This document shows, one piece after another, positions 28,612-57,365 of a stretch of 64,000 nucleotides of DNA. Source of the stretch: Actinostola sp. cb2023 (Eukaryota > Cnidaria > Anthozoa > Actiniaria > Actinostolidae); NCBI GenBank assembly GCA_033675265.1, contig JAUJYZ010000473.1:262827-326826 (forward strand), read 5' to 3'. The notes beneath the pieces are model-generated. The model worked only from the letters and a program-made list of their open reading frames with translations. It made no database searches and was not told the DNA's origin. Every line of letters begins with the position of its first letter. Position 1 is the stretch's first letter. Position numbers and translations under genes: made by a program.

Positions 28612-29266
28612 ATGGCATCATTCTATGAAATTGCTGGCTTCCCCAGGATTATTGGAGCCATTGATGGAAGCCTGATCCCAATAAAGGCTCCAAACAAGGG
28701 GGAACACCCGGCTTTATGTGTGCCACAAAGGCTTCCATGCCATGGCTGTTTGTAATGCAGATCTTGTGTTTACAATAAATGTCTTAGCTAAGTGGCATGG
28801 GTCCACACACGACTCTGCCATTTTCAATACCAGCGAGTTGCAATACCATTTAGAAAATGGTGGTGGAAGGGATGACTGGCTGCTGGGTGACAGGGGTTAT
28901 GCCCTACAGCCCTACCTAATAACCCCTTTCAGACCAGCAAATGTTGTAACAGAGCCAGAGAAACGGTACCAATCAAGTCATACCAAGACAAGGAACACCA
29001 TTGAAAGATGCTTTATTCTATGGAAGCAACGGTTCCGTTGTGTAGATGTTTCGGGTGGGGCGATGCAGTTTGAACCAAGTCGTTACTGCAGGATCATTTT
29101 GGCAATTGCAGTTCTGCACAACATGTGCCTAAAGACAACATATTTGCCTTTAGGTGCAGATGTTGTTGTGGAACAGGGTGGTGCCGAAATGGGAGCTCTT
29201 CAAGATGTCAACACTCAGGCGGGAAGTCAAGTGAGAGCACGTTTAATAAATGATGTATTTACCTAA
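28612..29266 (+). pseudogene. Harbinger (HARBI1-like) transposase, broken
   Basis: Frame 28612-28712 gives IIGAIDGSLIPIKAP with the first catalytic D. After a frameshift near 28712, 28718-29266 continues with NVLAKWHGSTHDSAIFNTS (second D), LLGDRGYALQPYLITPF and NTIERCFILWKQRF (catalytic E), the DDE_Tnp_4 pattern of Harbinger transposases. The N-terminal helix-turn-helix region is missing. It is a fragment. Long-TIR element A inserted about 60 bp after its stop. Confidence 0.85.
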
Positions 29267-29392
29267 TAATTCTAGGTAAATATTATCCATCTATAGCATG
29301 TAAATAGCACGTCTTAAAAATATTACATTTAAGTGGCTGTCCCGCTAAAAGCGGACCGGTCGTCTTCGCGACGGAAAATCGATTTCCTTTAA

Positions 29393-31157
29393 GGTGGCTG
29401 GACTGGGTTTTTAGGTGGCGTTACCTTCCATGTTTCAACGGAAAATTCGTTGCTGTTGACAAGCTAATTTAAAATCAATTTTTATACCAAGTCTAGAGAT
29501 AGATTAAAGTTTGCCATGATATATGTTTGATCATGATCGGAGTTATTCTAGCGCCAAAATGACGTTATTACGCTTTTTGAATAAATTCGATTTTCAGAGA
29601 GAGTAGAGTTTTGTTTAAAAAATTGTCTTCAAGACATAAAGTTCACATGGTCGTCTTCAGTTTACGAAGTTTCGATGATTTCTATGGAAGCGTTTGCAAA
29701 TAGATCGAATCGGAACTTTTTGGTAACGAATTTGTAAACAATCCTAAACAATTGTGTCGGGTGCCCGAAAACTTCACTTTGCGGACTATAAGTAAACTTC
29801 TTTTGAGCTCATATTGTTCTGCAACCTTTTCGGGATTCCTTTTAGGAAACGTAAAGAAATCGCTTCATTCGATTTCGAAAAATACGAGTTCCAGTAAAGA
29901 TATGCATTTTGTCTTTTATCAAGGATTTCACTTGTCTTTACTGAAAGGGGTAAAACTGAAAAATCCGGTGATGAATTTTTCTCTAACTACCAAGTCAATT
30001 AGTTTAGATAGCACATTCATCAACCCTGAAGTTTCAAGTTCATTGAAACACTTTAACACGGTCAAATAGTATTCTCAAATCCGAAGACTTGTATGACAAC
30101 CGCATCTTATTTGTGTTATGTTTTCTTTGTCATGCATCTCTATTGTACAGAATACTTGCTAAAGTTGTGCATTCCAACACACCATGCATTACCGTACACC
30201 GCCTGATTGCCTTCCGAATCCCTTCCGAGTATGAAAATACCGGTATCTCGACGGATATGGGCATTGTCACACAATTGTATTATATTATTATATTATCATA
30301 CTCGGACGGGACTCGGAAGGTAGTCAGGCGGTGCATGTAATGCATGGTGGTTGGAATGCACAACTTTAGCAAGTATTCTGTACAATAGAGATGCATGACA
30401 AAGAAAACATAACACAAATAAGATGCGGTTGTCATACTCTGGAAATGGGCATGCGGCAAAAGTCTTCGGATTTGAGAATACTATTTGACCGTGTTAAAGT
30501 GTTTCAATGAACTTGAAACTTCAGGGTTGATGAATGTGCTATCTAAACTAATTGACTTGGTAGTTAGAGAAAAATTAATCACCGGATTTTTCAGTTTTAC
30601 CCCTTCAGTAAAGACAAGTGAAATCCTTGACAAAAGACAAAATGCATATCTTTACTGGAACTCGTATTTTTCGAAATCGAATGAAGCGATTTCTTTCCGT
30701 TTCCTAAAAGGAATCCCGAAAAGGTTGCAGAACAATATGAGCTCAAAAGAAGTTTACTTATAGTCCGTAAAGTGAAGTTTTCGGGCACCCGACACAATTG
30801 TTTAGGATTGTTTACAAATTCGTTACCAAAAAGTTCCGATTCGATCTATTTGCAAACGCTTCCATAGAAATCATCGAAACTTCGTAAACTTGAAGACGAC
30901 CATGTGAACTTTATGTCTTGAAGACAATTTTTTAAACAAAACTCTACTCTCTCTGAAAATCGAATTTATTCAAAAAGCGTAATACGTCATTTTGGCGCTA
31001 GAATAACTCCGATCATGATCAAACATATATCATGGCAAACTTTAATCTATCTCTAGACTTGGTACAAAAAATTGATTTTAAATTAGCTTGTCAGCAGCAA
31101 CGAATTTTCCGTTCAAACATGGAAGGTAACGCCACTTAAAAACCCAGTCCAGCCACC
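29393..31157. mobile_element. nested foldback TTAA element D
   Basis: 1765 bp between TTAA at 29389-29392 and 31158-31161, inside the left TIR arm of A. The opposite arm has one TTAA at 35644-35647 and no insert. The ends read GGTGGCTGGACTGGGTTTTT inverted, and almost the whole element is one palindrome with arms of about 850 bp around 30280. Frames such as 29752-30069 are duplicated in both arms and look non-coding. Confidence 0.88.
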
Positions 31158-31161
31158 TTAA

Positions 31162-32141
31162 GTTTTGCAGGCTGAAAGGGTTTGGTACACATGTATTAAA
31201 AACCAACTGGTTTTTGTCAAAAAATCTTCTTTGATTTTTTTACGAACCAAAACCTAATTTTGACGGTCACGGGGTTTCTAGGCCTGATTCACGGACTCGA
31301 AATGACCGGTTTTTAGAGCCGCGCTACGTACAGAAGAAGAAATTAATCAAATGATATGAACCGTTACTATTATTTCAGTTCCAAGATACATTCCTTGAGT
31401 TCAAAACCGAAATATTATTTGTGTTTGAAAAATCCCAAGGAAATCAGGTGATTTCAAAGTTACCCCTCTTAACGCCTGATGAATTCGCACGAGAATATAG
31501 CCGTATAAAATGGTTAATATTTCAAAAGTGCGACGGAAATCTATGCAGAAATGCATTTCACGGTAAAGCTATAACCTGCTAGTGTCAGATTCTAACGTTA
31601 AACCTGTGGGTATGTCTCTCGAACAGGAAGAAAAAAAGCGATGAATACAAGTCATATTTGGCGTGTTTACATGAATAGCGAGCGTGACAGCTCATTAGCA
31701 TATCCGTTGTTTTCACCCCCGACATTCCTGTTTTTCAGTTAAAATACGGCACTTATCCTCGTGATATCAAGAAATATAACTTCCGTTCTTTCAACAACAC
31801 TTCAGACCAGCATAACAGTACAAATTGCAATTCCACAGGAGTAGAATGTTGGTCGTTTCTTTGCACGGCAAATGCACTTGACCAAGGCCGTTACACTTTG
31901 TTATGAATTTACTTCGATGACTAAAATGCTTCTCATTAATAGACGTTAGAACTCTTACTTACTGTGTTTGGTTACGATTTAGACTGTTGAACGCCATTAA
32001 TTCCGCTTCAGTTCGAAGGACGTTGGGTGACACTTCAAACTGTTCGACTATAAATTATAAACTATAACTTACACTGAAAACCGCTAGTGAGCTGGAAGAT
32101 GTAGCTAGGATAGCCATGCTGTTGATAACCATGCACTTCAG
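31162..32141. repeat. element A left TIR, inner part
   Basis: Inverted copy of 34664-35643; the first 60 bp of the same arm are at 29333-29392. Confidence 0.9.
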
Positions 32142-32370
32142 GTCCCGCGTCCACACGTGCCATCAAATGACAAACTGGACTTTTTTCTTGATCTGTCTCT
32201 ATATTCCATGATATTAAACCTCTAATTGTTGACTGCTGGTATCATGAGTACCTCATTAGCATATCCCATTGTTCTGTTTGGGACTCTTCAAAAGATCTCA
32301 GGCCCCGCCACACGTATCCGCATATCTTTGAATCCGCAACTTTTTCGATACGGATTGGCCTCCCGTCCAC

Positions 32371-32505
32371 ACGTATCCGGTGAATACGGTCGATGAATCC
32401 GCAACTTTTTGAATACGCTCTTTTGAATACCCGCGATGTGAATACGGCCGGTCAAGTTGCGGATTCATCGACCGTATTCACCGGATACGTGTGGACGGAA
32501 GGCCA
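32371..32505. repeat. short palindromic insert in element A
   Basis: Inverted arms CCGTCCACACGTATCCGGTG and their complement enclose GAATACG-rich sequence. It resembles a small MITE and lies next to the first coding piece of A. Confidence 0.55.
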
Positions 32506-34439
32506 ATCCAAGACATGTTTATATGTCCCAAACACCGTGGAAGTCTCGGTAGATATTGGAAACCTAAAACAGCGTGTCAGTATCCAGAACATAAGGGAAA
32601 ACTTCAGGCGGTAAAAGGCAATCGTGTTTTTAACGTCACGACTTCAAAAGACGTTCTTCTGATCATTGGATCGGATTTCTTATTCCTGTTGGATCACGTG
32701 AGTAAAATATTCATTTGATATATATACTGTAGTCAAGTATCTGAAATGTCCAATTCCTCCGTGGGGGGGTGGCGTGGCGTGTGGGGAGGTGCGGCGTGGG
32801 GAGGTGTGGCGTGGCGTGTGGGGAGGTGCGGCGTGGGGGGTGCGGTGGGGCGTGTGGTGTGGGGTGGCGTGTGGGGAGGTGCTGCGTGGGGTGTGGTGTG
32901 GCGGGGGGGGTGTGGCGTGGGGTGCTGTGTGGGGAGGTGTAGCGTGGGGAGGTGTGTGGGGAAGTGTGGCTTGGGATGGGGCGTGGCGTGGGAAGGTGTG
33001 GCGTTGGGTGGGTGTGGTGGCGGCGTGGTGTGGTGTGTGTGTGGCATGTGAAGGTGTTGGGTGTGGCGTGGGGTGGGGAGGGCGATGGTGGCGGGGGGTT
33101 TGGGGTGGTATGCTCCCATAAATTTAGGATAGGGCTATGTTGTCAACACAAAAAAAACTCTTTACTTACTTATTAATGTTTTCTGAAACCACTGTATGAT
33201 GATTCATGGGTTCGAAACCACTACTATACATGTCGGGCGGCACCTAGCTATATAACCGGTTTACATGTGGGAGTAACCACAGCCCCCACCCCTCCTTACG
33301 GGGCTCATAGATAAAACTTGTGTTAATAAAGGTGAAGCTTCCCAAATCAATATATGAATCGTAATTTTCACATGGTTTATAACGTTAACATAAATTAATT
33401 TCCTTACATACTCTCACCACCATATTTATCATGATGTTTCTTCAGCTATTTGTAAAAGTTGTCGAAAGATGCACAGTAGCAAGCTGAAGTCTGACTGGCG
33501 CTGGTTGAAAGAACAACAAACAGGCACGTAGGTCCCGGAAAGCTTATTCCCTGGTCAGAGGTTTTCATCAAAAAACAAGGACCTACTTTACTGAGAGAAA
33601 TTGCAGATCGCGGTTTCTTTCGCGTTGTACCACGGGTAATAAAGCAAAGTCTCTACTGATTCTGAGAACGAAGAGGCAGTGTTTCATTGCGAAGAACCAG
33701 GATGCATGAGTGAATTCAGCACTTTTGGTAAACTCCAAGACCATATTCATTTTGGTCAACATGGTAAATCGGAAACATCAGAGAGTGTATATGATGGTCT
33801 TAGACGTGAGTGGGTATCAAAGTTCTCATCACTGACTTTGGAATCCACAATATCGCAGGCGTCAGAAAAAACATCCAGTCATCTAGCAGGCAGTGATGAA
33901 TCGACAACAATGGGATGGGCAATTCAGAAACCAAGAGGAAGTGGATTAAGGTTTTCTGAGAATGTCAAGTCATACGCGATTTGAGCACGGTGAGTCAACA
34001 GGCAGGAAGGCTGACCCATGTCAAGTAGCAGCTGACATGAGGAAATCTCGAGGGATGAATGGTTATCTCAAGTCACAAGTTCAGGGATTCTTTTCAAGAC
34101 TGGCTGCGGCGAGAAGACGAAAAACGCCAATTTCTCATGAAACAGATCAGTTCGAAGATAACGAAGACGTCAACTTCTCAGAAGATGAACTGAGTGGCTC
34201 ATTCCGAGAACCGCAATAGACTGGGACTTATGCATCCAATAACGTACGACGGTTACAACATCTGTGAGCTTGTGAAGTTGAGCACATTAGCTAAATTCAA
34301 CGTAACAATGCTAAAGGCAATGTGCAAACATTTCGAGCTCACATATAAAGCGAGAGATGTAAAGGACACACTGGTAAAGAAATTGAAAGACATGGTTATA
34401 AGGACTGTACGTGCGCGCAAGTGTAGACTGCTGTCGTAG
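32506..34439 (+). pseudogene. element A remnant of the C2H2/DDE gene
   Basis: Three pieces match the six-exon gene of element B. Piece 1 (about 32511-32665) has CPKHRGSLGRYWKP and ends at the equivalent splice donor, which reads AT instead of GT. Piece 2 (from 33446, behind acceptor TTCTTCAG) has ICKSCRKMHSSK, a CxxC motif. Piece 3 (33679-34439, two frameshifts) has the C2H2 finger FHCEEPGCMSEF with HIHFGQH, then GESTGRKADPCQVAADM and VQGFFSRLAAARRRK. The DDE exons are absent. It is a deletion derivative and cannot be autonomous. Confidence 0.7.
32762..33112. repeat. G-rich minisatellite
   Basis: About 350 bp of imperfect repeats of GTGGGGAGGTGCGGCGTGG on the plus strand, almost without C-runs. 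It can form G-quadruplexes in principle. It lies in the intron region of the element A gene. The long frames on both strands (Gly/Val-rich and Pro/His-rich) are by-products. Confidence 0.85.
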
Positions 34440-34663
34440 CCATAAAGGCCAATTTAGACGGCACGACTTTTGCCTACAATATATTCGCGCACACAACTTG
34501 CTCGTGCTTTAATACTTACCGGGTACACGTTTCCCACAGCATAGCTGCATTAGCATATTCCATTCTCTTTGGGACTGCGACAGGTTAAACGTTTTGGTCA
34601 GTACTGTAACTACTCCAAAAGATCCTCTGAGTGATATCGAATGGAAGTACAAAGAGAATAGAA

Positions 34664-35703
34664 CTGAAGTGCATGGTTATCAACAGCATGGCTATCCTAG
34701 CTACATCTTCCAGCTCACTAGCGGTTTTCAGTGTAAGTTATAGTTTATAATTTATAGTCGAACAGTTTGAAGTGTCACCCAACGTCCTTCGAACTGAAGC
34801 GGAATTAATGGCGTTCAACAGTCTAAATCGTAACCAAACACAGTAAGTAAGAGTTCTAACGTCTATTAATGAGAAGCATTTTAGTCATCGAAGTAAATTC
34901 ATAACAAAGTGTAACGGCCTTGGTCAAGTGCATTTGCCGTGCAAAGAAACGACCAACATTCTACTCCTGTGGAATTGCAATTTGTACTGTTATGCTGGTC
35001 TGAAGTGTTGTTGAAAGAACGGAAGTTATATTTCTTGATATCACGAGGATAAGTGCCGTATTTTAACTGAAAAACAGGAATGTCGGGGGTGAAAACAACG
35101 GATATGCTAATGAGCTGTCACGCTCGCTATTCATGTAAACACGCCAAATATGACTTGTATTCATCGCTTTTTTTCTTCCTGTTCGAGAGACATACCCACA
35201 GGTTTAACGTTAGAATCTGACACTAGCAGGTTATAGCTTTACCGTGAAATGCATTTCTGCATAGATTTCCGTCGCACTTTTGAAATATTAACCATTTTAT
35301 ACGGCTATATTCTCGTGCGAATTCATCAGGCGTTAAGAGGGGTAACTTTGAAATCACCTGATTTCCTTGGGATTTTTCAAACACAAATAATATTTCGGTT
35401 TTGAACTCAAGGAATGTATCTTGGAACTGAAATAATAGTAACGGTTCATATCATTTGATTAATTTCTTCTTCTGTACGTAGCGCGGCTCTAAAAACCGGT
35501 CATTTCGAGTCCGTGAATCAGGCCTAGAAACCCCGTGACCGTCAAAATTAGGTTTTGGTTCGTAAAAAAATCAAAGAAGATTTTTTGACAAAAACCAGTT
35601 GGTTTTTAATACATGTGTACCAAATCCTTTCAGCCTGCAAAACTTAAAGGAAATCGATTTTCCGTCGCGAAGACGACCGGTCCGCTTTTAGCGGGACAGC
35701 CAC
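34664..35703. repeat. element A right TIR
   Basis: Uninterrupted 1040-bp arm, nearly identical to the left arm; its TTAA at 35644-35647 is the empty site for element D. Confidence 0.92.
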
Positions 35704-35707
35704 TTAA

Positions 35708-38217: not shown

Positions 38218-38350
38218 TGTAACGGTTTTAGTAACGTCCTTTTATTTTACTTAATCGTTGCTCAATCACACTCTAGTCATCCGATCCCTCATCTAACATG
38301 TTACACAATCTCTAGAGGTCATATGTCACGCCATGACTCAAACCGTCACA
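38218..38350 (-). repeat. 3' LTR
   Basis: On the minus strand it runs TGTGACGGTT to CCGTTACA, with TG/CA ends, 133 bp. Directly before it is a purine run (GGGGGGAGTAG in sense), at 38351-38365, serving as polypurine tract. Confidence 0.88.
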
Positions 38351-38455
38351 CTACTCCCCCCTAAATGAAGGGACGTGACCTCACGTCCTAAGTTTAGAAT
38401 AAAAAGCAACCGTAACATCAAATCAATACTCTTAGCTAGTTACAAGAATCAGTCT

Positions 38456-40594
38456 CTAGTTAGTGTCATAGTCTTTAAGCCAACCAGGGGCTTTTCTATT
38501 TCTTTGTTGCCTGCTGATGCGGTTCTGAATCTGATCACTGTCTGTACCATCAGCTAGAGGTTCAAGTCTGACCTCGCCGCTCTTGGGGCTGCCTGTGGTT
38601 TCCTCAGTAGGTAGAGCGTCCAGCCATGTGGGTGCATTGGTACCCTCGTATGGTTTGAGGCGGTTATGGTGTACAACCTTTGGTTTTGTTTTAGCTCCCT
38701 TCTGAATGCGATAGGTTACGTCGTCCAGTTGGCTGATGACAAGGAACGGTCCCTCATAAACATCATTTTGTAGTTTCGGACACCGCCCTTTCTTTCTCTT
38801 TGGGTTATGTAGCCAGACCGCATCCCCCCGATTAAAGTGGTTGCAACGTACACCCCGATGGTCATAATAGCGCTTTTGACGCTCAGTCTCATGCTTCAAG
38901 TGTTGCCTGGCAAATCTATGGACGGTCTCCATTCTCTTCAGTAGTTTTCCTGCATACTCGGACCGGTTGGCAGTCCCTCTAGAGTCGTCTGGAGGATGGC
39001 CCATTAGCAGGTCTACGGGCATTGCTGCCTCCCTCCCGAGCATTAACATACTGGGGGTGCACCCGGTCGTCTCGTGTACTGCTGTCCGGTACGCCATCAT
39101 TAGCAGAGGCAGGTGCACATCCCAGTCACGTTGATTTTCTGCTGTAAATTTTGCCATCATAGACTCCAGGGTTCGATTATAACGTTCAACCATCCCGTCT
39201 GATTGAGGGTGCAGAGGTGTAGTCCTTGTTTTTTCGATTCCGAGTAGGGTGCACATTTCTTTGAAGACTGCGGACTCAAAGTTTCTTCCTTGGTCGGAGT
39301 GTATCTGTAAGGGTACCCCAAATCTGGCCACAAACTCATCAACCACCTTTGTTGCCACTGTCACAGCTTCCTGGTTAGGAATTGCATAGGCTTCCGTCCA
39401 CTTCGTGAAGTAGTCGGCTACCACCAGCACGTACTTGTTTGAATTGTCAGACTCCGGAAGAGGACCCAAGACATCCAGCGCTACCCTCTCCATTGGTGCT
39501 CCAACGTTGTAATTTCTCATAGCGGCACGAGGTGTCCTCTGTGGTTTCTTGCGTGCCGCACAGAGATCGCACCTCCGGCACCAGTCTCTAACGGTCTGTG
39601 AGCATCTGTGCCAATAAAACCTCTGTCTGACTCGTCCAAGTGTTTTTGAGACTCCCAGGTGTCCTGCTGTCTTGGCGTCATGCATGGCACGAAGGACTTC
39701 TGGCCTCAGCGTCCTGGGGACCACGAGCTGCCACTGAACATCTTCGCCTGAGTCTGTTTCCCATCTTCTGTATAGGACGCCATCATGAAGCTGTACTCTC
39801 GCCCATTGGCTCCAGTATGCTTTCACAGCGCAGCTCTCCGCAGACACTTCGGCCCATGCTGGTCTCTCGGCTGTTGTCTCCTTCCAGTGTATGAGTGGGC
39901 TGAGGTCGGGGTCCTTTAGTTGTTCTTGTCGTAGGTCTTCATTGGACCACCTGGAAGTCCAGGAGTCTGGTATCTTTGTCTTAGTTACTTCTCGCGTCTC
40001 TGCAGACCTCAGTCCTCGCGCGGTTGTTTCCGCCTTGCCACATTCCTTTGGTGCGGTATCTTGGTGAACCCGTTCCTTCTGTTCAAGGTTTTGACAATGA
40101 TTACAGTCCTCGCAGGGTCTCCTCGATAGGGCGTCTGCATTTCCGTGCTTTACCCCGCTGCGATGTTCGATGGTAAGGTCGTATGTTCCTAAGAATTCAA
40201 GCCATCGTGCTAACTGACCCTCTGGATTCTTGAAGTTCATCAGCCACCTTAAGGCACCGTGGTCTGTCCTAACTAGGAATGGCCTTCCGTAAAGGTAATG
40301 ATGAAATCTCTTTACAGCATTGACAATGGCCAGGAGTTCCTTACGGGTGACGCAATAATTCCTCTCAGCTTTAGATAGGGATTTACTATAGTAGGCAATC
40401 ACCTTCTCTTCCCCATCTTGGACTTGTGAGAGCACTGCGCCCAAGCCGATGTTGCTTGCGTCTGTGTCCAGAATGAAGGGGTCTTTGCTCGTGGGGTATG
40501 CCAGAACCGGCGCCGTTGAAAGTGTGGTCTTTAACTGGTTGAAGGCGACGTCGCATTCCGAAGTCCATACGAACTCCCTTCCTTTCTCTGTCAA
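38456..40594 (-). pseudogene. Gypsy pol: RNase H and integrase
   Basis: 712 codons. RNase H carries D in LDTDASNIG, E in TRKELLAIV and D in RTDHGALRW. The zinc-binding integrase N-terminus (HLGVSKTLGR with CRRCDLC) is followed by the rve core: D in LDVLGPLP, D in HSDQGRNFES, E in ERYNRTLESM; then a GPY/F-type tail (YEGPFLVISQLDD). It joins the RT frame after a 1-nt shift near 40610 (TTT run). The integrase inserts the cDNA; RNase H degrades the RNA strand. Confidence 0.92.
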
Positions 40595-40628
40595 GCGGTG
40601 AAGGGGACGCGCAATGTCAGCAAAACCC

Positions 40629-42360
40629 TTAATGAACCGTCGATAATAAAGAGCACAGTCCTAGGAAGCTTCGCATTTCGCTTGCTCGAGATGGTACTGG
40701 CCAGTCCATTACCGCGCGGTTCTTCTCGGGGTCTGTGGAGATGCCATCGGCGCTAACCACGTGACCTAGGAAGTACACTGACTGCTGGAAAAGGCGACAC
40801 TTCTTCGGGTTTAGCTTAACTCCAGCATTCCTCAGACGTTCCATGACGTCACGCAGCCTTACTATTTCTGCTTCAAAGGTATCCGCATGGACGATGATGT
40901 CGTCGAGGTATGCCAGACACACCTCCCAGGGTAACCCAGCCAGCACTTTCTCGATGAATCTTTCAAAAGTCGCTGGAGCGTTTACCAATCCGAATGGCAT
41001 TACAGCGAAGTGATAGAGTCCTCCGCTTCCGGTAGCGAAAGCTGTCTTCTCACGATCCTCCGGTGCTAAGGCGACCTGCCAGTAGCCACTTGAGAGGTCC
41101 AGCGTAGAGAACCATCGTGATCCCGTCAGAGCGTCAAAGCACGAGTCTGCCAATGGTAATGGGTACGAGTCCCTGAGAGTAACTTCGTTCAGTTTCCGGT
41201 AATCGACGCAGAACCGTGTAGACCCGTCTTTCTTCTTAACGAGGACAATCGGTGATGCCCAAGCGCTAGAGGATGGCTCGATGATTCCATCGTTCAGCAT
41301 CTTCTTTACGTGTTCCTCTGCCTCCGCTCGTCTGTGCATTGGTAGGCGGCGAGCTGGCTGCTTTATCGGTATGGTATCGCCGGTGTTTATTCGATGCTCA
41401 ACGAGGTTCGTCCTGCCGAGGTCGCCAGGGGAACAAGTAAAGATATCAGCATACTCGATCAACAGTGCACTGAGCTTTTCTCGTTGGGCACTGCTAAGTT
41501 CGTTGCCACTCTTCTGAAACATGTCTTCCAGATGCTTTGGCACAGCCGTGCTGCACTTTGTTGGTTCCCTGTTAACACAGCGGACTGGTTCCTCCTTCAT
41601 TTCGCGAAACTGTGAGTTGACCTCAATAACGTCCTCGCACGATGCGGCAACCGTTCCTTTATACAATGTGCATGGTGTGTTGGTCACGTTTAACACTCTT
41701 AAGGGCACGACTTCCTTTTCCGTGTTGACCAGCGTTTTTGCGAGTAGGAGACTTTGTGTCTTTGCGAATCGTACTGAAGGTTCCAGCACGCCCATGCTGC
41801 CACTTGACCGCGGGTCAATGAACCTCCCTGGTACGATTAGTTCGCTTCCCGGTGGAATGACGGTTGTGCTTTCCACTACGACTCGACGGCATCCTTGTTC
41901 GCTGGACTCAGTTGCAGGAGCAAATTGGAGTTCACAGGAACCATTTTTGCAAACGAGCTCCCCACCAAAGGTGCGTAAGAAATCCAGACCAAGTATGCCT
42001 TCTGGCTCGATATCTGCCACCCATATTGGATGAAGGGCTTCGATGTTCCCAACGCGAACTTTGCACATGCCACGTCCCTGGAATGGTGCGGTGCTCCCAT
42101 TGGCCAATACCATGGTAGTTGCTGCGTCCTCCAACAATGGTCGGTCACTCTGTGGGATCTGTTCAATAACGACGGACTTTATAATGGTTATATTTGCACC
42201 GGTATCAATTAAGAAATCAACCGGGACTCCTTGAACATAGCCCCTTATGTAAAGCCCGTCGTTACAGTCCTTTACTTTTCCCGATTTAACAGCTGGGTTG
42301 TTGGGTCGTATTGACTGTTCAGCTACCGAGTTCAGGCCCTCGAGCTCGGCAGACTGTCGT
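40629..42360 (-). CDS. Gypsy pol: protease and reverse transcriptase
   Basis: The open frame begins within the end of gag (about 42360) in the -1 frame, with no stop before the protease. The aspartic protease active site DTGAN is at about 42200-42210 (FLIDTGANITIIK). RT motifs follow: WASPIVLVKKKDGSTRFCVD, FSTLDLSSGYWQVAL, FGLVNAPATF and the catalytic YLDDIIV. An overlap of gag and pol in different frames suggests -1 ribosomal frameshifting, though no slippery site was verified. The frame breaks near 40629 before RNase H. Confidence 0.9.
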
Positions 42361-43605
42361 TTCCCGATAGTGGACTGTTGACTTGTTGCTTTGTGGTTTG
42401 TGCTCTTTTGGGACAGTCACGTCGAAGATGGTTCTTATCGCCACAAGCCCAGCATCCGTCTCCTCGAAAGCGTTGGTGGTTCTGTTGCACAGAGCAAAGG
42501 CCTTGAACCAGGCGTTTTAACTCCTCTATCTCCTCGCGCAGGCCGTCATTCGTCTTTTTCGTTTTGTCGTTCTCGGCGCTGTTCGTTGTAACTTGAGCGG
42601 CTCTCGCTGACCTTTGGCGTTGTTTCTCAGCGCTCATGAATGCTTCAAGCTCTACGGCAACGCCCAGTGCTTCGTTTAGTGACTTTGGTCGTGCTTGACG
42701 TATCTTCCATCGCATGTCTGTCTCCGTTATAGCGTCTAGGAAGTAGTCTCGGGCAAGGATATCACGTAAGTCTACTGCTGCGCTTGGATAGGCTTGACGG
42801 GTCAAGCGCCTGATGGCCTGTGCCAACTCAGGTAGACTCTCATCTTTCTCCCGCTGGCGGTTCTTTACGTTGACTCTGAACATCTCGGTTTTATTTTCAG
42901 TTCCGAACCGTGTTGCGAGCGCCGCTGTCAGGCTTTTAAAGTTACGTCTCTCTTCACCACTTAGGTCACCAAGGACTGTTCGCGCCTGTCCTACCAGGCT
43001 CACGGCGAGGTAGGCGGCTTTCTCTTCGCTATTCCAATCATTAAGGTCAGCGACCATTTCGAACTGGGCCTCGTAATCCTCCCAGGATGTTGTCCCCTCG
43101 TACACAGCGGGACGTACGCGAGGTCTCGTGGGCTGATATTGTTTGCACCACCGCCCCCTTTTCCTGTTTTGGTGATTTGAGTAGCGTTGTTTACGGTTTC
43201 TTCATCCTTTGCCTTCGCTAATTCTTCGATTTTAGCGAGAGCGTCGAACAGTTCATCGTTCTCGTGGTCTACCATGTTTTTCTCGTTACAATTTCCATTG
43301 CTTGTGGTTGTCGAGCTCGTTTGTTTACTTTCGACTGTCAGCAATCGTTTCGTTAAATCGTTTAACCTATTCTCCAGTTGGGAATTCTGTGTGTTCACGG
43401 TCTCACTCAGCGATTCCACAGCTTGAAAGATCTTTCCGAGTTGGTTGCATGTCGAGTCGTCTTGTTCTTCTTCGTTCTTTCCCTTGACGATTACCGGTGT
43501 CGACATTCTCCACGTGTCTGAGCATGCTTGTTCCAGCTCCTCGGGGTTCATGTCCATCAAACTGTCAAACTTCACTTCCGAATCACTAGTACATTTACTT
43601 GACAT
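42332..43605 (-). pseudogene. Gypsy gag, frameshifted
   Basis: The N-terminal part starts at the ATG at 43603-43605 (MSSKCTSDSEVKFDSL), has a coiled-coil stretch, and shifts frame near 43125. The capsid part (WEDYEAQFEMVADLNDW, SLPELAQAIRRL) and a CCHC zinc knuckle CWACGDKNHLRRDC follow to the stop at 42332. About 420 aa. Gag packages the RNA in virus-like particles. The GTG-initiated extension into the primer-binding site is rejected as a start. Confidence 0.87.
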
Positions 43606-43618
43606 TTTCTTGTAGTTA

Positions 43619-43637
43619 ATCCCAAACGCGGCCACCA
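43619..43637 (-). promoter_or_regulatory. tRNA primer-binding site
   Basis: In sense TGGTGGCCGCGTTTGGGAT, two bases after the LTR end. It begins TGG, the complement of a tRNA CCA 3' end; I cannot name the tRNA. Confidence 0.75.
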
Positions 43638-43639
43638 GT

Positions 43640-43764
43640 TGTAACGGTTTTAGTAACGTCCTTTTATTTTACTTAATCGTTGCTCAATCACACTCTAGTC
43701 ATCCGATCCCTCATCTAACATGTTACACAATCTCTAGAGGTCATATGTCACGCCATGACTCAAC
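43640..43764 (-). repeat. 5' LTR, outer end missing
   Basis: Identical to 38218-38342 across the shared length, but the last 8 bases (the TGTGACGG start of U3) are replaced by the first unit of the 92-bp satellite. Confidence 0.85.
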
Positions 43765-44668
43765 TATTTCTCCGAAGCGCTCAGGCAAATAAATCGCCAG
43801 GACTTCTCGCTGGATGTACCAACTAGAGAAATATATTACCACATACATCACTCGACTATTTCTCCGAAGCGCTCAGGCAAATAAATCGCCAGGACTTCTC
43901 GCTGGATGTACCAACTAGAGAAATATATTACCACAGACAACACTCAACTATTTCTCCGAAGCGCTCAGGCAAATAAATCGCCAGGACTTCTCGCTGGATG
44001 TACCAACTAGAGAAATATATTACCACAGACAACACTCAACTATTTCTCCGAAGCGCTCAGGCAAATAAATCGCCAGGACTTCTCGCTGGATGTACCAACT
44101 AGAGAAATATATTACCACAGACAACACTCAACTATTTCTCCGAAGCGCTCAGGCAAAATAAATCGCCAGGACTTCTCGCTGGATGTACCAACTAGAGAAA
44201 TATATTACCACATACATCACTCGACTATTTCTCCGAAGCGCTCAGGCAAATAAATCGCCAGGACTTCTCGCTGGATGTACCAACTAGAGAAATATATTAC
44301 CACAGACAACACACTCAACTATTTCTCCGAAGCGCTCAGGCAAATAAATCGCCAGGACTTCTCGCTGGATGTACCAACTAGAGAAATATATTACCACAGA
44401 CAACACTCGACTATTTCTCCGAAGCGCTCAGGCAAATAAATCGCCAGGACTTCTCGCTGGATGTACCAACTAGAGAAATATATTACCACATACATCACTC
44501 GACTATTTCTCCGAAGCGCTCAGGCAAATAAATCGCCAGGACTTCTCGCTGGATGTACCAACTAGAGAAATATATTACCACATACATCACTCGACTATTT
44601 CTCCGAAGCGCTCAGGCAAATAAAGCGCCAGGACTTCTCGCTGGATGTATACCGCCAACTAGAGAAAT
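43763..44668. repeat. 92-bp tandem satellite, about 10 units
   Basis: Units begin CTATTTCTCCGAAGCGCTCA and end with TAGAGAAATATATTACCACA; each is 92 bp with a few changes (CATACATCACTCG versus CAGACAACACTCA). The inverted words TATTTCTC and GAGAAATA lie in each unit, so each can form a weak stem. The last unit is degenerate. Units adjoin directly with no unique spacers. Confidence 0.95.
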
Positions 44669-45885: not shown

Positions 45886-45889
45886 TTAA

Positions 45890-47227
45890 GAGTGAATGTC
45901 TGATAGAACCGAGAATCGCCGGTCAGCGACCCCTTGGACAAATGTCTCAAATTTTGCCAGATGATACCTTTGGGTAACCTATTTTCGAAAGGCATATTAA
46001 AAAGTTCCAGTGTCTTTTCATTTTTTTTTTAATTAAGAAAGTTCAAAAGTGTGGTCGAAGTGCTGTTTTTGATTGTCGCGCTGTCCAAATAATGGCGCGA
46101 GTACGAAGCGTCGCTGTAGCCTCAAAACTATTTCAATACCAATCAAACTTTACACAGATAAAGAAGCACTATCGACAATGAATTTGAGTCCAAAAATTGT
46201 TCTGATCTGTAAATCAAATATTTTTGCGAGCCATTTCGAGAATGAGTATAAAGTGCACAGAAAGTTACGGCGAAAAATAGGGTATATTAAATCGCATAAA
46301 AAGGTTCCTGGTATGTCATTGTTCTACATTTAAGAGGCAGTCCCTGTAAGATTCGAGCAAAGTGGGAAATCGGCCCAAAATCGAGATTTTTGAAACTTTG
46401 CCTGAATGAAGTCTACTATCTGCCTGTTTGATTGGTATGGCTTGTTTTCCTTGAAAATATTTATTTCGAATTTTACGAGCAAAAAACGAATTTTCACATT
46501 TTGACGAGGCGAATATGCAAATTTATCGAAATTCAAAATTCTCTCAAACATTCAGCAGTCACTCTTTCAAACTAAAATGCACTACGACGATCAATGTTCT
46601 ATTGGACTATTTACTAAGCGTTATATATCTTAGTTTCAATCGACTTTTGCAAATATATTTGAATGCAAAGAAGACCTAGTTTTGGAGAAACTCAGAGAGC
46701 GTAAAGTATGCTAATTTCAACTACCGAAAACCTTGTGTAATAGAGCGAGTAAAATCAAATAAGTTGTATCCCCGTGAAGGCCAATAGTTGTAATAGTTTT
46801 CTGTGAAGAAATATCCGCGGGCACTCGATTGGTTTATTTGTGAGAGTGCTTTCAAATACATGAATATGCAAATTTCACAATTCAAACGAATTCGCCGGTA
46901 AAGTATCAAACTATCGAAACGATCTGTTCTTAGCTTCACGGGTGCCTGACATTTGCTGAAATGACAAGATAAATACGGTTTAGCTTATATTGATGTTCAT
47001 TTAAAAGCTTGCTTGCGATTTCGAGAGTAGTCATGTTGAATTAGGCAAAAACACGCAATTTAACTTCATCAAAGTTATGGTTGCAAATCCGCAGCTTTGG
47101 GTTTATATAATACCAATTCGTTTAGCGGAAAAGCAAAGTACATCGACATCAAATCGAATGAAAACTGGTATTAGTTAAATTGCGAAATCGAATGATGTAA
47201 ATAAAGTAAAAATATTGTTTTAAATCG
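45890..47227. repeat. element B left TIR
   Basis: Inverted copy of the two right-arm parts. Contains the intact TTAA at 46329-46332, the empty site for element C. Frames such as 46721-46939 are repeated in the other arm at 53038-53256 and are not taken as genes. Confidence 0.88.
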
Positions 47228-47659
47228 GCATGGTCTAGGTCTTATGTTGCTAATTTATTCAGTCCATCGCCAAGGGCGCGCGCGTGTTCAAGACTTCTCT
47301 CGCTTGCTACATTGTTGTCGCATTTAGGACTATGTGACCATTACTTTGACTATATTATTGTATTTCTTATTAACGCATGTACAAATACATTACATTGTTA
47401 TTTACTACAAACGGCTATTTGAGTTTGTCCCAAATACTTACAGTTTCGCTCAGTAAGTAGTATAATGTCAAAAACGATCAACAGAGGCATTAGCGAGTAT
47501 TAATCCCCTTCGTCCAGCCAAAGAACTATCGATCGGTAGAAGAACATGGTTAAAACTAAGTCATATAGTGATCATATTCGCGAACCTATAACCGATAATG
47601 TTATTTAGCTGTGACTGCAAGGTATACAACTGCATTGCTTAAAGACAAAACAATTTACA

Positions 47660-50600
47660 TTAGTATTTACACGAGCACTTGCTCAAAAACGAAGTAATTG
47701 CTTCTACAAACGCAATTTTTGTCCTTCCATCAGCTTTCACGCCAAAGTGATTGACAATGGAGCGTAGCTGAGTCATCTTGAATGCAGCTATTTGCTTCTC
47801 TTCGAGGCTGCACAGGTTCGTCCTGGAGTACAGGATGGGGTGCCTGGACTCAATTTCCTGAAGTGCGTGGATCACATTATCACGTGCGGCTGTCTGGTGG
47901 CGCCTGTATTCCTCAGCCTCGTCGTCTGATGCCGTTACAGGTACTTTTCTCTTAGCTGCCATTCGTGAAAAGTATGACGTAATCTGTGCCGGACGTAAAA
48001 ACTCCTCTACTCTAAAAAACGCGCTGGTCAGTGTCATCCCTTACGCATCTCATCTCCTTTGCCACGTCCTCTGGATTCGCCTTTACACCAGTCCTCTCTC
48101 CTACTTGGAACTTATTTTCTAAGTAGGCTTTCTGTTTTGCGCTGAAACGGGTGTGACGTTTGGATGTCTCGCGATGTGCCCATCCCTGTGTGAGAGTGCA
48201 GGGCGTGCCGGTCCCTTGTTTCCGCCCTGAAATGTTACTGATACTGATACACCCCAGTGCTCCAGCCTCCAGCCGCTCAGCATAACGGACCTTGGCCTTG
48301 TCCATCAGTCTTGTTCTTTCTAGCCTGAACTCGTGTTTGCCAAACATGAGGTGTTGCTCTAGCCTGCCGTGTGATATGTATGATTTTACACAGCCATCTT
48401 CTGGGCAAACAAACAGATGGGAGTCGCTGGTCAGGACTGGATCAGAAGAGTCGTCGTCGAGTTCTGTGTTGGAACAAATAACTGGTTGCCGTGTCTCTTT
48501 CACCTGTCTGTGTTTGACTGGTATAAAGCCGCCTTCTCCAACATCGTCTGTTATCCAGTCAAATGAATCGCCTTTCGGGATGCCTGAAATAAGTATAATT
48601 ACAATTATTGGAATAATAACTTACCAAGTTGTAGTTTTCATTATACTTACCATCAAATCCTGTCCAGGACCAAAAATGCCCTTCACCGATGTTGTACGCC
48701 TTAAAGGCCCGTATCCCTTGTGTTGTCAGCACAAAGTTGGAAAAGCTGCTGACTCCATCCCACTTGATTTTTGTTTCTTTGGCTGCTTTTCCTACCCTAG
48801 GCGCCACCACACGTACTACACGAACACCTGGTATTCCATCGTTCGATTCGATTGCAGTTTTCATTTCAGATGCAGTTGTAACTGAGTGGCCTTGGTTGAT
48901 GTATGCCTTTATGTGCGTTTTTATCTGCGCCGACTTCCTGTCACACGGTCCCTTCCCACCCTGTGGATCACAGAAATCAAACTGGCGGAGGTCCAGTCCA
49001 GTCCGGTCACGAAGAACTTTGCATGCGAGAATCGTTGATGCTGAATGGTAACATCCCGCGTTGTCTTGTCGATAATAAACATTGCTTAACTCGGGATGTT
49101 CACGTTTGAGTGTCTGTAGAACATGCTCCATTACAGTTACCACTGTTTTGCTGTCCTGGATTCCAGACTCAATGATATGAACAAACGTTTCAGCTACAAG
49201 CACATTATTAACTCTTGATTGACATACTGTGATGTGCCAGGAAATTCCCCTTTTTCCGAAGAATTCAGCCTGTGTCTCTCTATACTGTGCCGGTAAAAAC
49301 TTCATGGCAAAGTCTTGTATTATCAAGACAGTATCTGCTTCAAGGGTTTCGAGTACATCAGTCCTTGCTTTATCTTGATGGACCATTCTGAGCTGATGCG
49401 ATTTCCAGGCGAGGATGGCATCACATGCAGTGTGCGTTGTAAAAAGCGCGTCGTCTTGAATGTCTTGTGGAAGCTTGGTTGACATCACTTCTGATTTCAC
49501 TTGTACAAGCGTCTGAAAAAGTCAGTAAAAGGAACCAAATTGTATTACCATGCACCGTTTAACTTGTAATACTGACAAGGATCTGTTTACCACATATATT
49601 GAAAACGTCGCGCGGCAAAGCATTTTGTATGCAAAACATTATATTACAAGTTATGAGCAGTGGCGTAGCCAAGAAAGGGTCCTAGGGATGCCTAATGGAT
49701 TCAGATGAGTGTAGTCCAGACATAAACAACTGTGAAAAATACTTACTTCTTTTAAGCTCTCACATCGGTCACATAACTGGTTGTGTTCATGCTCGCATTG
49801 ACCTTGGTAGGACTGTACACTGGGGTCACTGAGGGAAAATACTCTGCAATGGTCGGCAACTGGACTATTCAGCAAGCAGTGAACCTGAAGTCCGGAAACA
49901 ATTTTTTAGAGATAAAGCAACATTAGCCAGTCAGATATATCGTTTATTAATTTGGATTGAACGCCGGCTGATAGCTCTGACAGTATTTTTGGGTGAATAA
50001 TAATAATCGAATATTAGAAAAATGAAACAGTTGCCTTTCTAACTAAACAATACGTACCTTGTAATCGCCTTTTATGTATTGTTTGAGTTGCCTGAGCTGG
50101 TCCTTCAGGTGGCGTATCATAGCATCACCAGCAGCACCATACTGTAAGAGCGTGTCGAGGATGGAGATGAGGTCATCGAATCCACGTCCACCCTCAGCTG
50201 CATAGTTGTCAAGCCCTTGAAGACTCTTTCTTACTGACGCAACGCAAGACTCGGAGAGTATACGGAAGAGTGTGGTTCTGGAGAGGGGCTGGTAAGAGCT
50301 CTCTTCACAGTACTGGTTATACTGAACTATAAGACGAGATGGCAGCACTGTTCTGATCACATTCGGGATGTCTATTACCGCCCCGCTGGTAAGCTTTAGG
50401 GTTCTTCTCCCAAACGGCAGGTCCTGCACGATGTTTGAAGATGTCACAAAATCGAGAAAGTGTTCAAGTTTTCCAGGATCTACTTTTTCTCTGATCTGTT
50501 TCGGAGGTGCGTCCAAGCGAAGACCAGCACCGGTTTCTATGCTGTATCGCCTCGCTGCTGTGAATTGGTATCGGGTCAGTTCTGGTATGTGTTTTGTAAG

Positions 50601-52438
50601 CTCTGCATAGCTAACTTTACTGGCAACAAGACTCAGCAACTGACGTTTGGTTTCTGACTTTGATGCCTGTTTGTAAGACTCAGCAACTGCTATCAACAGT
50701 TCACTACCCAGCTTATCGCTCGCAAGTAATTTACTGACCTCGTCAGTATTTCTGACTGCAGTCCACAATGCTGCAGCAGATTGCGGTGCAACAGTTCTTA
50801 CCACTTCAGCGATAATCGCGCTTGCTTTCGTGGTGTAATGCAAGCGCGTTTTAGTTGACGTGTCACCCCAAGGGTGTCTCAATATAGATCCAAGAGGTCC
50901 AATACTAGACTCATCTAGAAATATATCCAGTGCATCTGTCTTCCTATTTTCATTGCTCTCTTGAGCTTTGGAATCCTCGCGTGGAACTTGGCTTTCACTC
51001 TCTTCTGTGTTGTACTGGGTATCTTGAGATGAGGATGGCGAGAAGTCACTTGCGATGTCGAGACGGCTCAATTCTTCAGTGAGGTTGTCAATGGCAGAAA
51101 GGCTATCTTTTACTTGGATAGATGGCTACAAATATATGATTTTATGATGCTAAGTGGTTGTCATAATGGTTGCTTGATAAAATATATATGTAAAAGGCGA
51201 AGATTTTGAAAACATGAATAAATTGTATAAAAACATTTTCGATATAAAGGTCATCATCAGTTTATATGCTAAGTGATTGTACTATTGTGTCATGCAGTCC
51301 CACTATCAGGGCCGTACACAGCACAGGGGCAGGGGGGCAGTTACCCCCGCTAGTAAGGCGAAAAAGATACCAAAAAGTACTAAGAACTGTAATATTTTTA
51401 TTAATTTTTTCCTTTTAAAAACGTACTGTCCCCCCCTTGAATTTTGGGTTATGTACGGCCCTATTGTTCCTAAATGTTATTATGGTTTACCGGTTAAAGT
51501 AGATCAATATTTCAATTCCAACGACTACGTTTATACACGAAAAGGGATTGTTGGAATGTGGGCTACCTGTGGATTCGGTTTTCGCGCCATTTACATGAAC
51601 ACGCCCGTCATGCTACACTGAACATAGTAGTTATAAAACAATTCTCAATCAAACTGCGCGATGCAAACAAGATGAGCGAGTTGCAAATAATAATAATAAT
51701 AATAATAGCTTGTCGCAGCTTTAATGTCAAAGTAAATAGAGCAACACGCGGCAACAATGCTGTCATTGAGTGCGCGCTTCGCGGCTGTCATTTCCATTCA
51801 CATGCATGTACATTGTACCTGTTTTGGATTTTCAGACGGAATCAGCATCTCCTTCGCCATTGGCATTTTCAATGTTTCTCGGCATCTTCTGCATATCGCT
51901 AGACATTAACATATAATTTAATATATTTGTTATATAGAAATGCTATGACGGTTACTACGTCATTACCTGATCCAATTGGAACGAGCACACCAATTTGCTT
52001 GAATACGGCTTGTGAAAGAGATTTGCTGACTGTCCGGTCACCCTTAGGTACGTTTGAGGGATGGTTAGCTAATGACTGCGGAATCTGGCAGCGGCGCTGG
52101 CGACCCCTCCAATATATACCCAAATTATCACGGTGCTTTGGGCACACAACTAGGTCTGTATCACCAAAAATACCTAAAGAATCACAAGATTGCAACGTTT
52201 CTGCATGTGTGCATGTTAAGTAATAACACAGCAAACGGTTTACACGTACGTACGTACCTGCTCTACACATTATGAGTTCCCCTTCATTGGCGAGTCCCCT
52301 CAGATTGAACATCTTCAAATGCCCAGTTATATCGCGACGACATTCATTGATCGACAGCATTACCTCAGCATTCTTATCTCTATATACTGCGAAGCCGCAT
52401 TCTGTGCCTAGAACAGCACCAATACCACACTTCGTCAT
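47660..52438 (-). CDS. six-exon C2H2/DDE transposase-like gene
   Basis: Exons (minus): 51967-52438, 51819-51898, 50058-51125, 49747-49884, 48651-49512, 47660-48583. All introns are GT-AG and every junction keeps phase, about 1180 codons. In order: a Cys/His segment VVCPKHRDNLG (exon 1); CRRCRETLK (exon 2); a long exon 3; CEHEHNQLCDRC, a Zn-binding cluster (exon 4); a DDE-like core with D in IIQDFAMKFLP (49312-49314), D in YYRQDNAGCYH (about 49065) and CDPQGGKGPCDRK (exon 5); a C2H2 finger FVCPEDGCVKSY with HLMFGKH, then RFSAKQKAYLENKFQVGE and ITSYFSRMAAKRK, homeodomain-like (exon 6). One frameshift in an A6 run (48014-48019). Probably the transposase of element B. Third catalytic residue unassigned. 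Confidence 0.75.
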
Positions 52439-52757
52439 TTTCTACAGGACTTTAATACTGACAATCATTCCATTCCTTGAAATGTCAAGACTTTGCTTGT
52501 ATTGCACAACGTACCGGTCCCTTGGTAACTGCATCACGTGCAATCAACAAATGCAATAAATGTACTACGTACACGTTGTTTGGATATTTAGTTTATGTAA
52601 AAGATTACATAGAGTAAAAGTTGGCATTTATTAAATGCAATTCAGAGGAAATAAGGTTCTAAAGTTCTATTCTTGATTAACGAAACACACCTGACCAAAG
52701 CACTGGTGAATTAATTAGCAACAGGTTGTCGATTTCAGGACACCTCGACTATATGAT

Positions 52758-53642
52758 TTAAAATGATATTTTTACTTTCTAAATCATTCGATTTCGCAAT
52801 TTAACTAATACCAGTTTTCATTCGATTTGATGTCGATGTACTTTGCTTTTCCGCTAACCGAATTGGTATTATATAAACCCAAAGCTGCGGATTTGCAACC
52901 ATAACTTTGATGATTCAGAAGTTACATTGCGCCTAATTTAACATGACTACTCTCGAAATCGTAAGCAAGCTTTTAAATGAACATAATTATAAGCTAAACC
53001 GTATTTATCTTGTCATTTCAGCAAATGTCAGGCACCCATGAAGCTAAGAACAGATCGTTTCGATAGTTTGATACTTTACCGGCGAATTCGTTTGAATTGT
53101 GAAATTTGCATATTCATGTATTTGAAAGCACTCTCACAAATAAACCAATCGAGTGCCCGCGGATATTTCTTCACAGAAAACTATTACAACTATTGGCCTT
53201 CACGGGGATACAACTTATTTGATTTTACTCGCTCTACTACACAAGGTTTTCGGTAGTTGAAATTAGCATACTTTACGCTCTCTGAGTTTCTCCAAAACTA
53301 GGTCTTCTTTGCATTCAAATATCTTTGCGAAAGTCGATTGAAACTAAGATATATAACGCTTAGTAAATAGTCCAATAGAACATTGATCGTCGTAGTGCAT
53401 TTTAGTTTGAAAGAGTGACTGCTGAATTTTTGAGAGAATTTTGAATTTCGATATATTTGCATATTCGCCTCGTCAAAATGTGAAAATTCGTTTTTTGCTC
53501 GTAAAATTCGAAATAAATATTTTCAAGGAAAACAACCCATACCAATCAAACAGGCAGATAGTAGACTTCATTCAGGCAAAGTTTCAAAATCTTGATTTTG
53601 GGCCGATTTCCCACTTTGCTCGAATCTTACAGGGACTGCCTC
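52758..53642. repeat. element B right TIR, inner part
   Basis: Inverted copy of the inner part of the left TIR (46333-47227). The outer remainder of the right TIR is at 56563-57169. Confidence 0.88.
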
Positions 53643-53646
53643 TTAA

Positions 53647-56558
53647 ACTTTATAGCCTTAAAGTTATGTTATTGAAGTTTGTCTCTACCAAATTTCACGG
53701 TCAAAATCGCATTCTTTCCCAATCAGAAAATCGATCGTCCGAGTACTACTTTTGGCCGGAGCGTCATACTTTGACTCTTGAAAAGACATCAAAGTGGACC
53801 GATAAAATTCGAAACTACTTCTAAAGAAGTCTCAATGCACAGCTATTGAAGTTAAAAGACAGCGAAATTATTATTATTATTATTATCATTTACATTATTT
53901 ACTCTTGCTCGTTCGCTCTCATAAACAACCGCATTATATTCCAATAAAACAAGACTAGAAGATCATAACAGATCAAAACATTGAATATTCTGTTATTGGC
54001 ATTAAAATATTATTACTACTATTATTAAATTTGCTACTCTTCTGGCTACAGTCCCTACAATATTTTCGATATGTAAATTAGGTTGTTCGTTTCCTTGTCA
54101 ATCCATCCTCGGAAACCCAGGGGCTGTAGGGGAGGGTGAGGGGAGGGGAAACGCAAGGGGAGGGGGGAGGCCATTGGTTTTCGAGGATGTTGTCAATCTA
54201 GTAATTGTACCTTCATCGCCGAGAAAAACTTGTCGAAAAAGTACATTACGTTACCGTAGAGTAAAGGTCTATGTTTGACGTTATCAATGTAAATAGACGC
54301 ATTTAGTTTTCTAGCAAAAATATCAAATGTCTGCTTAATCGGGAAAGAAACTGGGCGACCATGAGCCACGCGCGTAAGGTTGAGCAAACGTTGTTGTTTA
54401 TATCCCCATAGTCAAACTCGTTTTCTCATTGGTAGCCCAACCATTGCTTCCGTTGCCTCCTTTGCAGACGTTTTTAATGTCGACATTAAAAGCGTCTGTA
54501 AAGGAGGCTATTGCTTCCGAGGCTACTAAATAAAAAGAAGTCAGAGACAAACACTAATAATCAATAATGTATCGTAAACCTGACTGCAACTTCAAGATAT
54601 ATAAATAAAAAGATATTTGCACCTTTCTTTGATGGGTTTCCTGTGTTAGAGCGCGCGCGCGCGAAATACGTAAGGTTGGGGTTCGCTGTGCATAAAAATT
54701 GCGCGCGTTCTTTACCTCTGGAAACCCATCGATAAATTAAATAAATTAATTAAATGCAAGAAGTAGTTCCATTTCTGTCTTTACTCCCTCATCTGATTGG
54801 AGTTTCAATGTTCCACCATAACATCTCTGTTGCATTCCGGGGGGGTTACTACTTGACCCATGTTTGGGTATAGGGATGCCGCTGACGGTTTGAAACATTG
54901 ACCCTGTTTAGGACCAAAAAATATAAAATACCTACCCTGTCTAGGACAACACCCTCTATTTTAGGACCCTGTTTAGGGCCAAGGACAAAATAAACACTGT
55001 CTTCTTTTACACAATTTTAACGTGTTTTATGTTGACTGATCACCTGCTAAAGATCGGCAAACTTCTCTCTCGGATGGCTAAATACCGGATAAAACCATAT
55101 TTAACGACGACAATCGTGCATTACCATACCCTGTTTAGGACAGACTCACATAAAATTATATACCCTGTTCAGGACAGAGAGGCCAAAAACCATACCCTGT
55201 CCAGCGGCACGTCCCCGTATAGCCCATATATGGGAGTACCCATGGGCGAATCTTGAAAATAAATAAAATATGAGAGAATCGCCGCAATCCGTAATACGGT
55301 CAAGAAGCGCTATATAACTACAAAAAGTCATTCACCACACTGAAAAATTATTAAAGAGCACTCGCGATCCTGACAACAGGATTCTATAATTTTATATATA
55401 TTGAGCAATAGGAAAAATGTGTAGTACAGTACACAGGACACGTGACCCAAGCGTGATTATGCCTTTTAAAAGTGGATGATTTGGAGAGCTAACAGTAGAG
55501 TAGACTCCTATGCACCCGTTCTTACTTTCGGGATCGCAGGGATCCTGAAAATAAGAACGGGTGCATAGGAGACTAACAGTAGAGGAAACACGAGAAGGAT
55601 TTGCGGCAGTTGCTACGTACGCTTAGTGAAGACGAATATCAACGTTTATTAAAGGGCCGGACACACGGTGCAACTGCGTGTGTCCACCTCTGCAACATCT
55701 TGCGAGCAACAAATTACGTCGTATTAGCGCGCCGAGTCAATTGTGAGCAATCAGTTTCATGGGTGGACACACGCTGCAACAAAATTGCCAGCAATATTGC
55801 GCGCAATGTTGCACCGCACTCGCGTGGCTCTCTTGCGTGGCTCCTGGCCGTCCAGTTTTCAAATTATTATTTTTGGCTAGAAAACTAAATCCGCAACGCG
55901 TCTATTTACATTGATAACGTCAAACATAGACCTTTACTCTACGGTAACGTAATGTACTTTTTCGACAAGTTTTTCTCGGCGATGAGGGTACAATTACTAG
56001 ATTGACAAGGAAACAAACAACCTAATTTACATATCGAAAATATTGTAGGGACTGTAGGAGAAGGGTAGCAAATTTAATAATAGTAATAATATTTTTAATG
56101 CCAATAACAGAATATTAAATGTTTTGATCAGTTATGATCTTCTAGTCGTGTTTTATTGGAATAGAATGCGATTGTTTATGAGAGCGAACGAGCAAGAGTA
56201 AATAATGTAAATGAGACATACCATCATGTACATAATTAAATTATGTTGTTGACAAGTTATGGGATTGTAAATGTTGAAAGATCGATGAAAGACTAGTGAG
56301 GTCTAGCAGAAATTGAATTGAATTGATTTGCAAAGCATTTCGCTGTCTTTTAACTTCAATAGCTGTGCATTGAGACTTCTTTAGAAGTAGTTTCGAATTT
56401 TATCGGTCGACTTTGATGTCTTTTCAAGAGTCAAAGTATGACGCTCCGGCCAACGGTAGTACTCGGACGATCGATTTTCTGATTGGGAAAGAATGCGATT
56501 TTGACCGTGAAATTTGGTAGAGACAAACTTCAATAACATAACTTTAAGGCTATAAAGT
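53647..56558. mobile_element. nested foldback TTAA element C
   Basis: 2912 bp between TTAA at 53643-53646 and 56559-56562, inside the right TIR of B. The left arm of B has a single TTAA at 46329-46332 and continues unbroken. Arms of about 660 bp (53647-54310 and 55885-56558), ends ACTTTATAGCCTTAAAG inverted. The middle has small hairpins (54456-54512; 55506-55573) and no gene I recognise. Confidence 0.88.
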
Positions 56559-56562
56559 TTAA

Positions 56563-57169
56563 ATGTAGAACAATGACATACCAGGAACCTTTTTATGCGA
56601 TTTAATATACCCTATTTTTCGCCGTAACTTTCTGTGCACTTTATACTCATTCTCGAAATGGCTCGCAAAAATATTTGATTTACAGATCAGAACAATTTTT
56701 GGACTCAAATTCATTGTCGATAGAGTTTCTTTGTCTGTGTAAAGTTTGATTGATATTAGAGAGATTTAGCAAACACGACGTGACGTGAAAGAGGACGGCG
56801 CGCGCGCTGACGAATAACTGTGAAACGACCGTTGGGCGTCCTCAACGTCATGAAGAGGACGTGAAAACAAGTGAAATGGCGTCGTGAACTTGACGTCGCG
56901 TCGTGTTTGCTAAAACTCTCTATTGAAATAGTTTTGAGGCTACAGCGACGCTTCGTACTCGCGCCATTATTTGGACAGCGCGACAATCAAAAACAGCACT
57001 TCGACCACACTTTTGAACTTTCTCAATTTTAAAAAAAATGAAAAGGCGCTGGAACTTTTTAATATGCTTTTCGAAAATAGGTTACCCAAAGGTATCATCT
57101 GGCAAAATTTGAGACATTTGTCCAAGGGGTCGCTGACCGGCGATTCTCGGTTCTATCAGGCATTCACTC
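56563..57169. repeat. element B right TIR, outer part
   Basis: Continuation of 52758-53642 after the insertion of C; ends CATTCACTC before the TTAA. A 150-bp stretch near 56760-56930 is not in the left arm and is palindromic, probably another small MITE. Confidence 0.8.
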
Positions 57170-57174
57170 TTAAG

Positions 57175-57362
57175 GAATGGTCAACGCTTAGCGTGCGTCC
57201 ATCGAGTTATGGAGCATGAGGGAAGTTGGGAGAGCACGAGAGAAGCGTAAGAGTTGCTGGAGGCGTAGCCGAGAGCAACTCTAGCTCCACGAGCCTATGC
57301 TCTCCCAAATTCCCGCATGCTCCATAACTCGATGGACGCACAGCTAAAGCGTTGACCATTTC
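57175..57362. repeat. foldback repeat beside element B
   Basis: Arms of about 75 bp (AATGGTCAACGC, CGTCCATCGAGTTATGGAGC and their complement) directly after the right TTAA of B. Possibly a MITE that was at the target before B. Confidence 0.7.
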
Positions 57363-57365
57363 TTT

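Follow-up and report, generated by a model that had tools for sequence, protein, structure and literature searches.

A TTAA-flanked transposon of Actinostola sp. with kilobase inverted repeats and a seven-exon gene for a putative DDD transposase

Herein, we describe a nearly intact TTAA transposon in the genome of Actinostola sp. cb2023 (Actiniaria), at positions 45890-57169 of a 64,000-nucleotide window (contig JAUJYZ010000473.1 of assembly GCA_033675265.1, positions 262,827 to 326,826 of the forward strand; coordinates below are those of the window). There is good support for this main element being a real transposon whose protein bears a C2H2 finger and is DDE/D-like. Very probably, it belongs to the class II cut-and-paste transposons and has one gene, of seven exons, for a DDD-type transposase about 1,150 residues long, a second element in the window is its core-less relative, and the closest fit by description is Sola3.

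The main element is flanked on both sides by TTAA, and these copies directly adjoin the inverted end sequences GAGTGAATG...CATTCACTC (Table 1). Its terminal inverted repeats (TIRs) are about 1.34 kb long. With inserts excluded, 1,308 of 1,367 columns of the arm alignment were identical and 26 were gap columns, giving an identity of 97.5% over ungapped columns; the final ~40 columns extend beyond the TIR end. In a self-comparison, the left arm (45886-47226) paired with right-arm blocks 57173-56921, 56757-56559, and 53647-52755. The right arm, and only the right arm, is broken by a 2,912-bp TTAA insertion and by an insertion of ~163 bp resembling a miniature inverted-repeat transposable element (MITE). 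The TIR length and TTAA target of the original prediction, made from the letters of this stretch, were borne out by the alignment.

The gene lies on the minus strand. All six of its introns are GT-AG and in phase, as had been anticipated, but the exons number seven rather than the six first proposed. Exon 7 contains a single frameshift, in a run of T near 48016, that corresponds to the one predicted homopolymer slip; its origin could be either biological or a sequencing slip, and the protein has 1,152 residues when read through. In the gene region, the two longest frames free of stops comprise 360 and 320 codons; across 300 order-1 Markov simulations of the region, the longest frame per simulation reached 247 codons at most.

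The main protein carries two CxxC pairs (residues 132-135 and 550-553) and, at residues 905-929, a C2H2 pattern. A PDB sequence search matched this finger to ZNF410 (E 2.2e-4) and YY1 (E 0.016), in agreement with the finger originally noted, while the Pfam scan of pieces gave no finger model above its cut-off. The C-terminus is SAP-like: among its PDB matches, the C-terminal region of Ku70 ranks 1st, 6th, and 7th, and SAP-domain-titled entries rank 41st and 45th. In the pattern VLIIQD...VYYRQDNAG...GKGPCDRKSAQIK, we assigned by eye the acidic residues D625, D708, and D749 (spacing 83/41), which would be the spacing expected of strand 1, strand 4, and the following helix of an RNase H fold. The proposed DDE-like core was found as an acidic core pattern, but its triad reads DDD, a putative assignment from motifs. 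Single-sequence AlphaFold2 prediction of the exon-6 core gave no confident model (mean predicted local distance difference test, pLDDT, 38.5).

The strongest new evidence that this gene belongs to transposons is the second element, partly deleted and located 10 kb from the main one. A tblastn search of the main protein against its own window returned three collinear stretches at ~32.5-34.4 kb (E 2e-5, 1e-4, and 0.008). On the second element alone, these matches reached 42.7, 37.7, and 30.0 bits, versus at most 26.6 bits for 200 block-shuffled queries; four weaker matches of 17.3-20.0 bits, two of them collinear, fell inside the shuffle range. The shared protein parts are a CPKHR/CxxCR N-terminus, the C2H2 finger, a basic segment, and the SAP-like C-terminus, and the exon 2/3 intron has an identical position and phase in both elements. 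The basic segment, which had been called homeodomain-like, matched the second element at 33.5 bits (at most 23.1 in 200 shuffles). The segment is conserved there, but it had no Pfam or PDB match, and its identity as a homeodomain is unproven. Exons 4-6 had no match inside the second element in the protein comparison and the frames there are degenerate, so this copy is non-autonomous. Since the matched parts are only 24-38% identical, it represents another family rather than a recent copy. Within the first 1,000 aligned columns its two TIRs show a single mismatch, nested insert excluded. This near identity suggests either recent movement of the second element by a transposase acting in trans or homogenisation of its arms.

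Both elements carry a nested TTAA insertion in one TIR, and in each case the opposite arm provides an internal control for the empty site. In the main element, the left TIR retains the empty site of the 2,912-bp insertion as a single TTAA, and the right TIR of the second element likewise retains that of a 1,765-bp palindrome. The 2,912-bp element contains no frame of at least 130 codons wholly inside it. The palindrome ends GGTGGCTGGAC resemble the second-element ends GTGGCTGTCC, whereas those of the 2.9-kb insert (ACTTTATAGCC) are unlike them. The right TTAA of the main element is also where a 193-bp near-palindrome (57172-57364) starts; this may be an older MITE into whose edge the main transposon inserted. 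Just left of the second element, Pfam identified a DDE_Tnp_4 transposase fragment (28685-29263), which we take to be Harbinger-type.

In the mechanism that we propose, the zinc-binding N-terminus together with the C2H2, basic, and SAP-like tail would recognise the long TIRs and pair the two ends. These would be cut by the DDD core and joined to a staggered cut at TTAA, producing the 4-bp target-site duplication (TSD). The present copy carries its one frameshift and the nested insertions, and the second element would be a relative from another family that lost the catalytic exons.

Table 1. Coordinates of the main element, its gene, the second element, and the nested insertions
Feature	Position	Strand	Basis or detail
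Left TTAA target-site copy	45886..45889	.	sequence
Left TIR, about 1.34 kb	45890..47226	+	self-comparison, arm alignment
Exon 7: C2H2 finger, basic segment, SAP-like C-terminus; frameshift near 48016	47663..48583	-	
Exon 6: putative DDD catalytic core (D625, D708, D749)	48651..49512	-	exon model; triad by eye
Exon 5: Cys/His cluster CEHEHNQLCDRC	49747..49884	-	exon model and motif reading
Exon 4	50058..51125	-	exon model
Exon 3: CxxC; exon 2/3 junction conserved in second element	51819..51898	-	exon model
Exon 2: CPKHR motif	51967..52173	-	exon model and protein comparison
Exon 1	52258..52438	-	exon model
Right TIR, interrupted by 2.9-kb and ~163-bp insertions	52755..57169	-	self-comparison, arm alignment
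Nested 2,912-bp TTAA element, own long inverted ends ACTTTATAGCC	53647..56558	.	TTAA 53643-53646 and 56559-56562
~163-bp MITE-like insertion in right TIR	56758..56920	.	self-comparison, arm alignment
Right TTAA target-site copy	57170..57173	.	arm alignment
Second related element	29333..35703	+	TTAA 29329-29332 and 35704-35707; ends GTGGCTGTCCCGC; TIRs ~1.04 kb; catalytic exons missing
1,765-bp palindromic TTAA element in left TIR of second element	29393..31157	.	
Degenerate coding remains: exon-2/3-like, C2H2, basic segment, SAP-like C-terminus	32512..34439	+	

Other mobile sequences were also found in the window. A 16.9-kb Polinton-like element (8037-24960) has 365-bp inverted ends (92%), an apparent 6-bp TSD (TGGACT), and frames for a Pox_A32-type ATPase, an rve integrase, and a helicase-like protein; a reverse transcriptase-domain frame lies inside it at 19180-21009. 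Inverted repeats of 0.9 kb, 83% identical, bound an 11.3-kb stretch at 3586-14855. At 38217-43763, a Gypsy-type retrotransposon showed Pfam matches that passed the cut-offs for protease, reverse transcriptase, RNase H, and integrase domains and one for gag that fell just short, with identical 125-bp direct repeats on both sides. It is adjoined by a tandem repeat array (43754-44668) with a unit of ~92 bp.

It appears most improbable that unrelated inverted repeats happen to enclose a host gene here, or that the main element is the product of an assembly duplication. The gene does have many introns and a finger domain of a kind common in host regulators, but a second, diverged copy of this gene lies inside another TTAA/long-TIR element, which argues that the gene belongs to mobile elements, and we rejected a captured host gene on this basis. 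Gene copies at host loci without TIRs and TTAA had been named at the outset as evidence against a transposon; in the window, the one further copy lies inside both. Assembly duplication as the source of the TIRs was rejected because the mismatches between the arms are scattered point differences and both insertions are confined to one side.

A possible but doubtful reading is that these DDD transposons represent an undescribed animal superfamily with TTAA specificity, separate from Sola, Kolobok, and piggyBac. It would be characterised by kilobase TIRs, a seven-exon transposase gene, a zinc-binding N-terminus, a conserved C2H2/basic/SAP-like DNA-binding tail, and core-less and palindromic TTAA derivatives invading one another's TIRs. 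Several results favor such novelty and weigh against our assignment to Sola. No Pfam family matched at E ≤ 10 over the 1,035 residues that precede the frameshift, and when six pieces of the main gene and two of the second element were scanned apart, three had no Pfam match and five had only below-cut-off matches. Of 8 other frames from transposable elements in the window, 7 had a match above cut-off in the same library, and some piggyBac and Kolobok signatures are missing. Similar uncharacterised proteins are, however, frequent among the gene sets of corals and other marine invertebrates, which lowered our estimate of novelty. The Pfam absence is weak evidence because Sola1-3, named as groups within one superfamily in excerpts of PMC4455052, might lack a Pfam model. 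A Repbase comparison could well yield a name already in use. If the element belongs to Sola3, the window describes a group that has received little study in fairly full detail, from exon structure and tail domains to a deletion derivative and nested target sites. Otherwise, it would be a further lineage arriving at TTAA, bearing on the evolution of TTAA specificity, and its tail, with C2H2 and SAP-like parts, would be unusual as a module for binding the ends.

The other TTAA superfamilies share the TSD with our elements. For piggyBac, a domain for which Pfam holds a model, no transposase match was obtained in the first 1,035 residues (E ≤ 10). Its end motif CC[C/T]T and TIRs of 12-19 bp, as given in excerpts of PMC2872659, contrast with the ends GAGTG and GTGGC and the TIRs of more than 1 kb here, and piggyBac was contradicted by both end sequences and TIR length. 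A divergent Kolobok element is very unlikely. Excerpts of PMC9587614 describe 5'-RR/YY-3' ends and a C/DxxH between the second and third catalytic residues. The main element, with GA/TC ends, agrees with the former, but the second has GT/AC, which is not RR. With the triad assigned by eye, no C/DxxH occurs between D708 and D749 or in the next 61 residues, which contradicts Kolobok. The C(2)C and H(3-4)H expected of CMC/Transib between the second D and the last acidic residue (excerpts of PMC12730594) were sought as well. Neither was present from D708 to 61 residues past D749, which contradicts CMC/Transib, given the same by-eye triad.

Sola3 prefers a TTAA target, and both of our elements have TTAA at both ends. 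Excerpts of PMC10741241 describe Sola as having a DDD transposase, a 4-bp TSD, and TIRs of 11-1124 bp, with sizes mostly of 2-9 kb and some over 15 kb. The 4-bp TSD and the long TIRs are shared here, as would be, by motif, the putative DDD-type transposase, traits that also speak against a new superfamily; the second-element TIRs (~1.04 kb) lie within the quoted range of reported elements, whereas those of the main element exceed it. Excerpts of PMC10294476, PMC5199201, PMC8634313, PMC4455052, PMC7913693, PMC9976928, PMC10741241, PMC12730594, PMC2872659, PMC3878927, PMC4735498, and PMC9587614 contain no Sola3 sequence or motif, and Sola was compared by description only. On that comparison, the main element is probably a Sola3-like DDE/D cut-and-paste transposon, with Sola the closest-fitting superfamily and Sola3, through its TTAA preference, the closest group.
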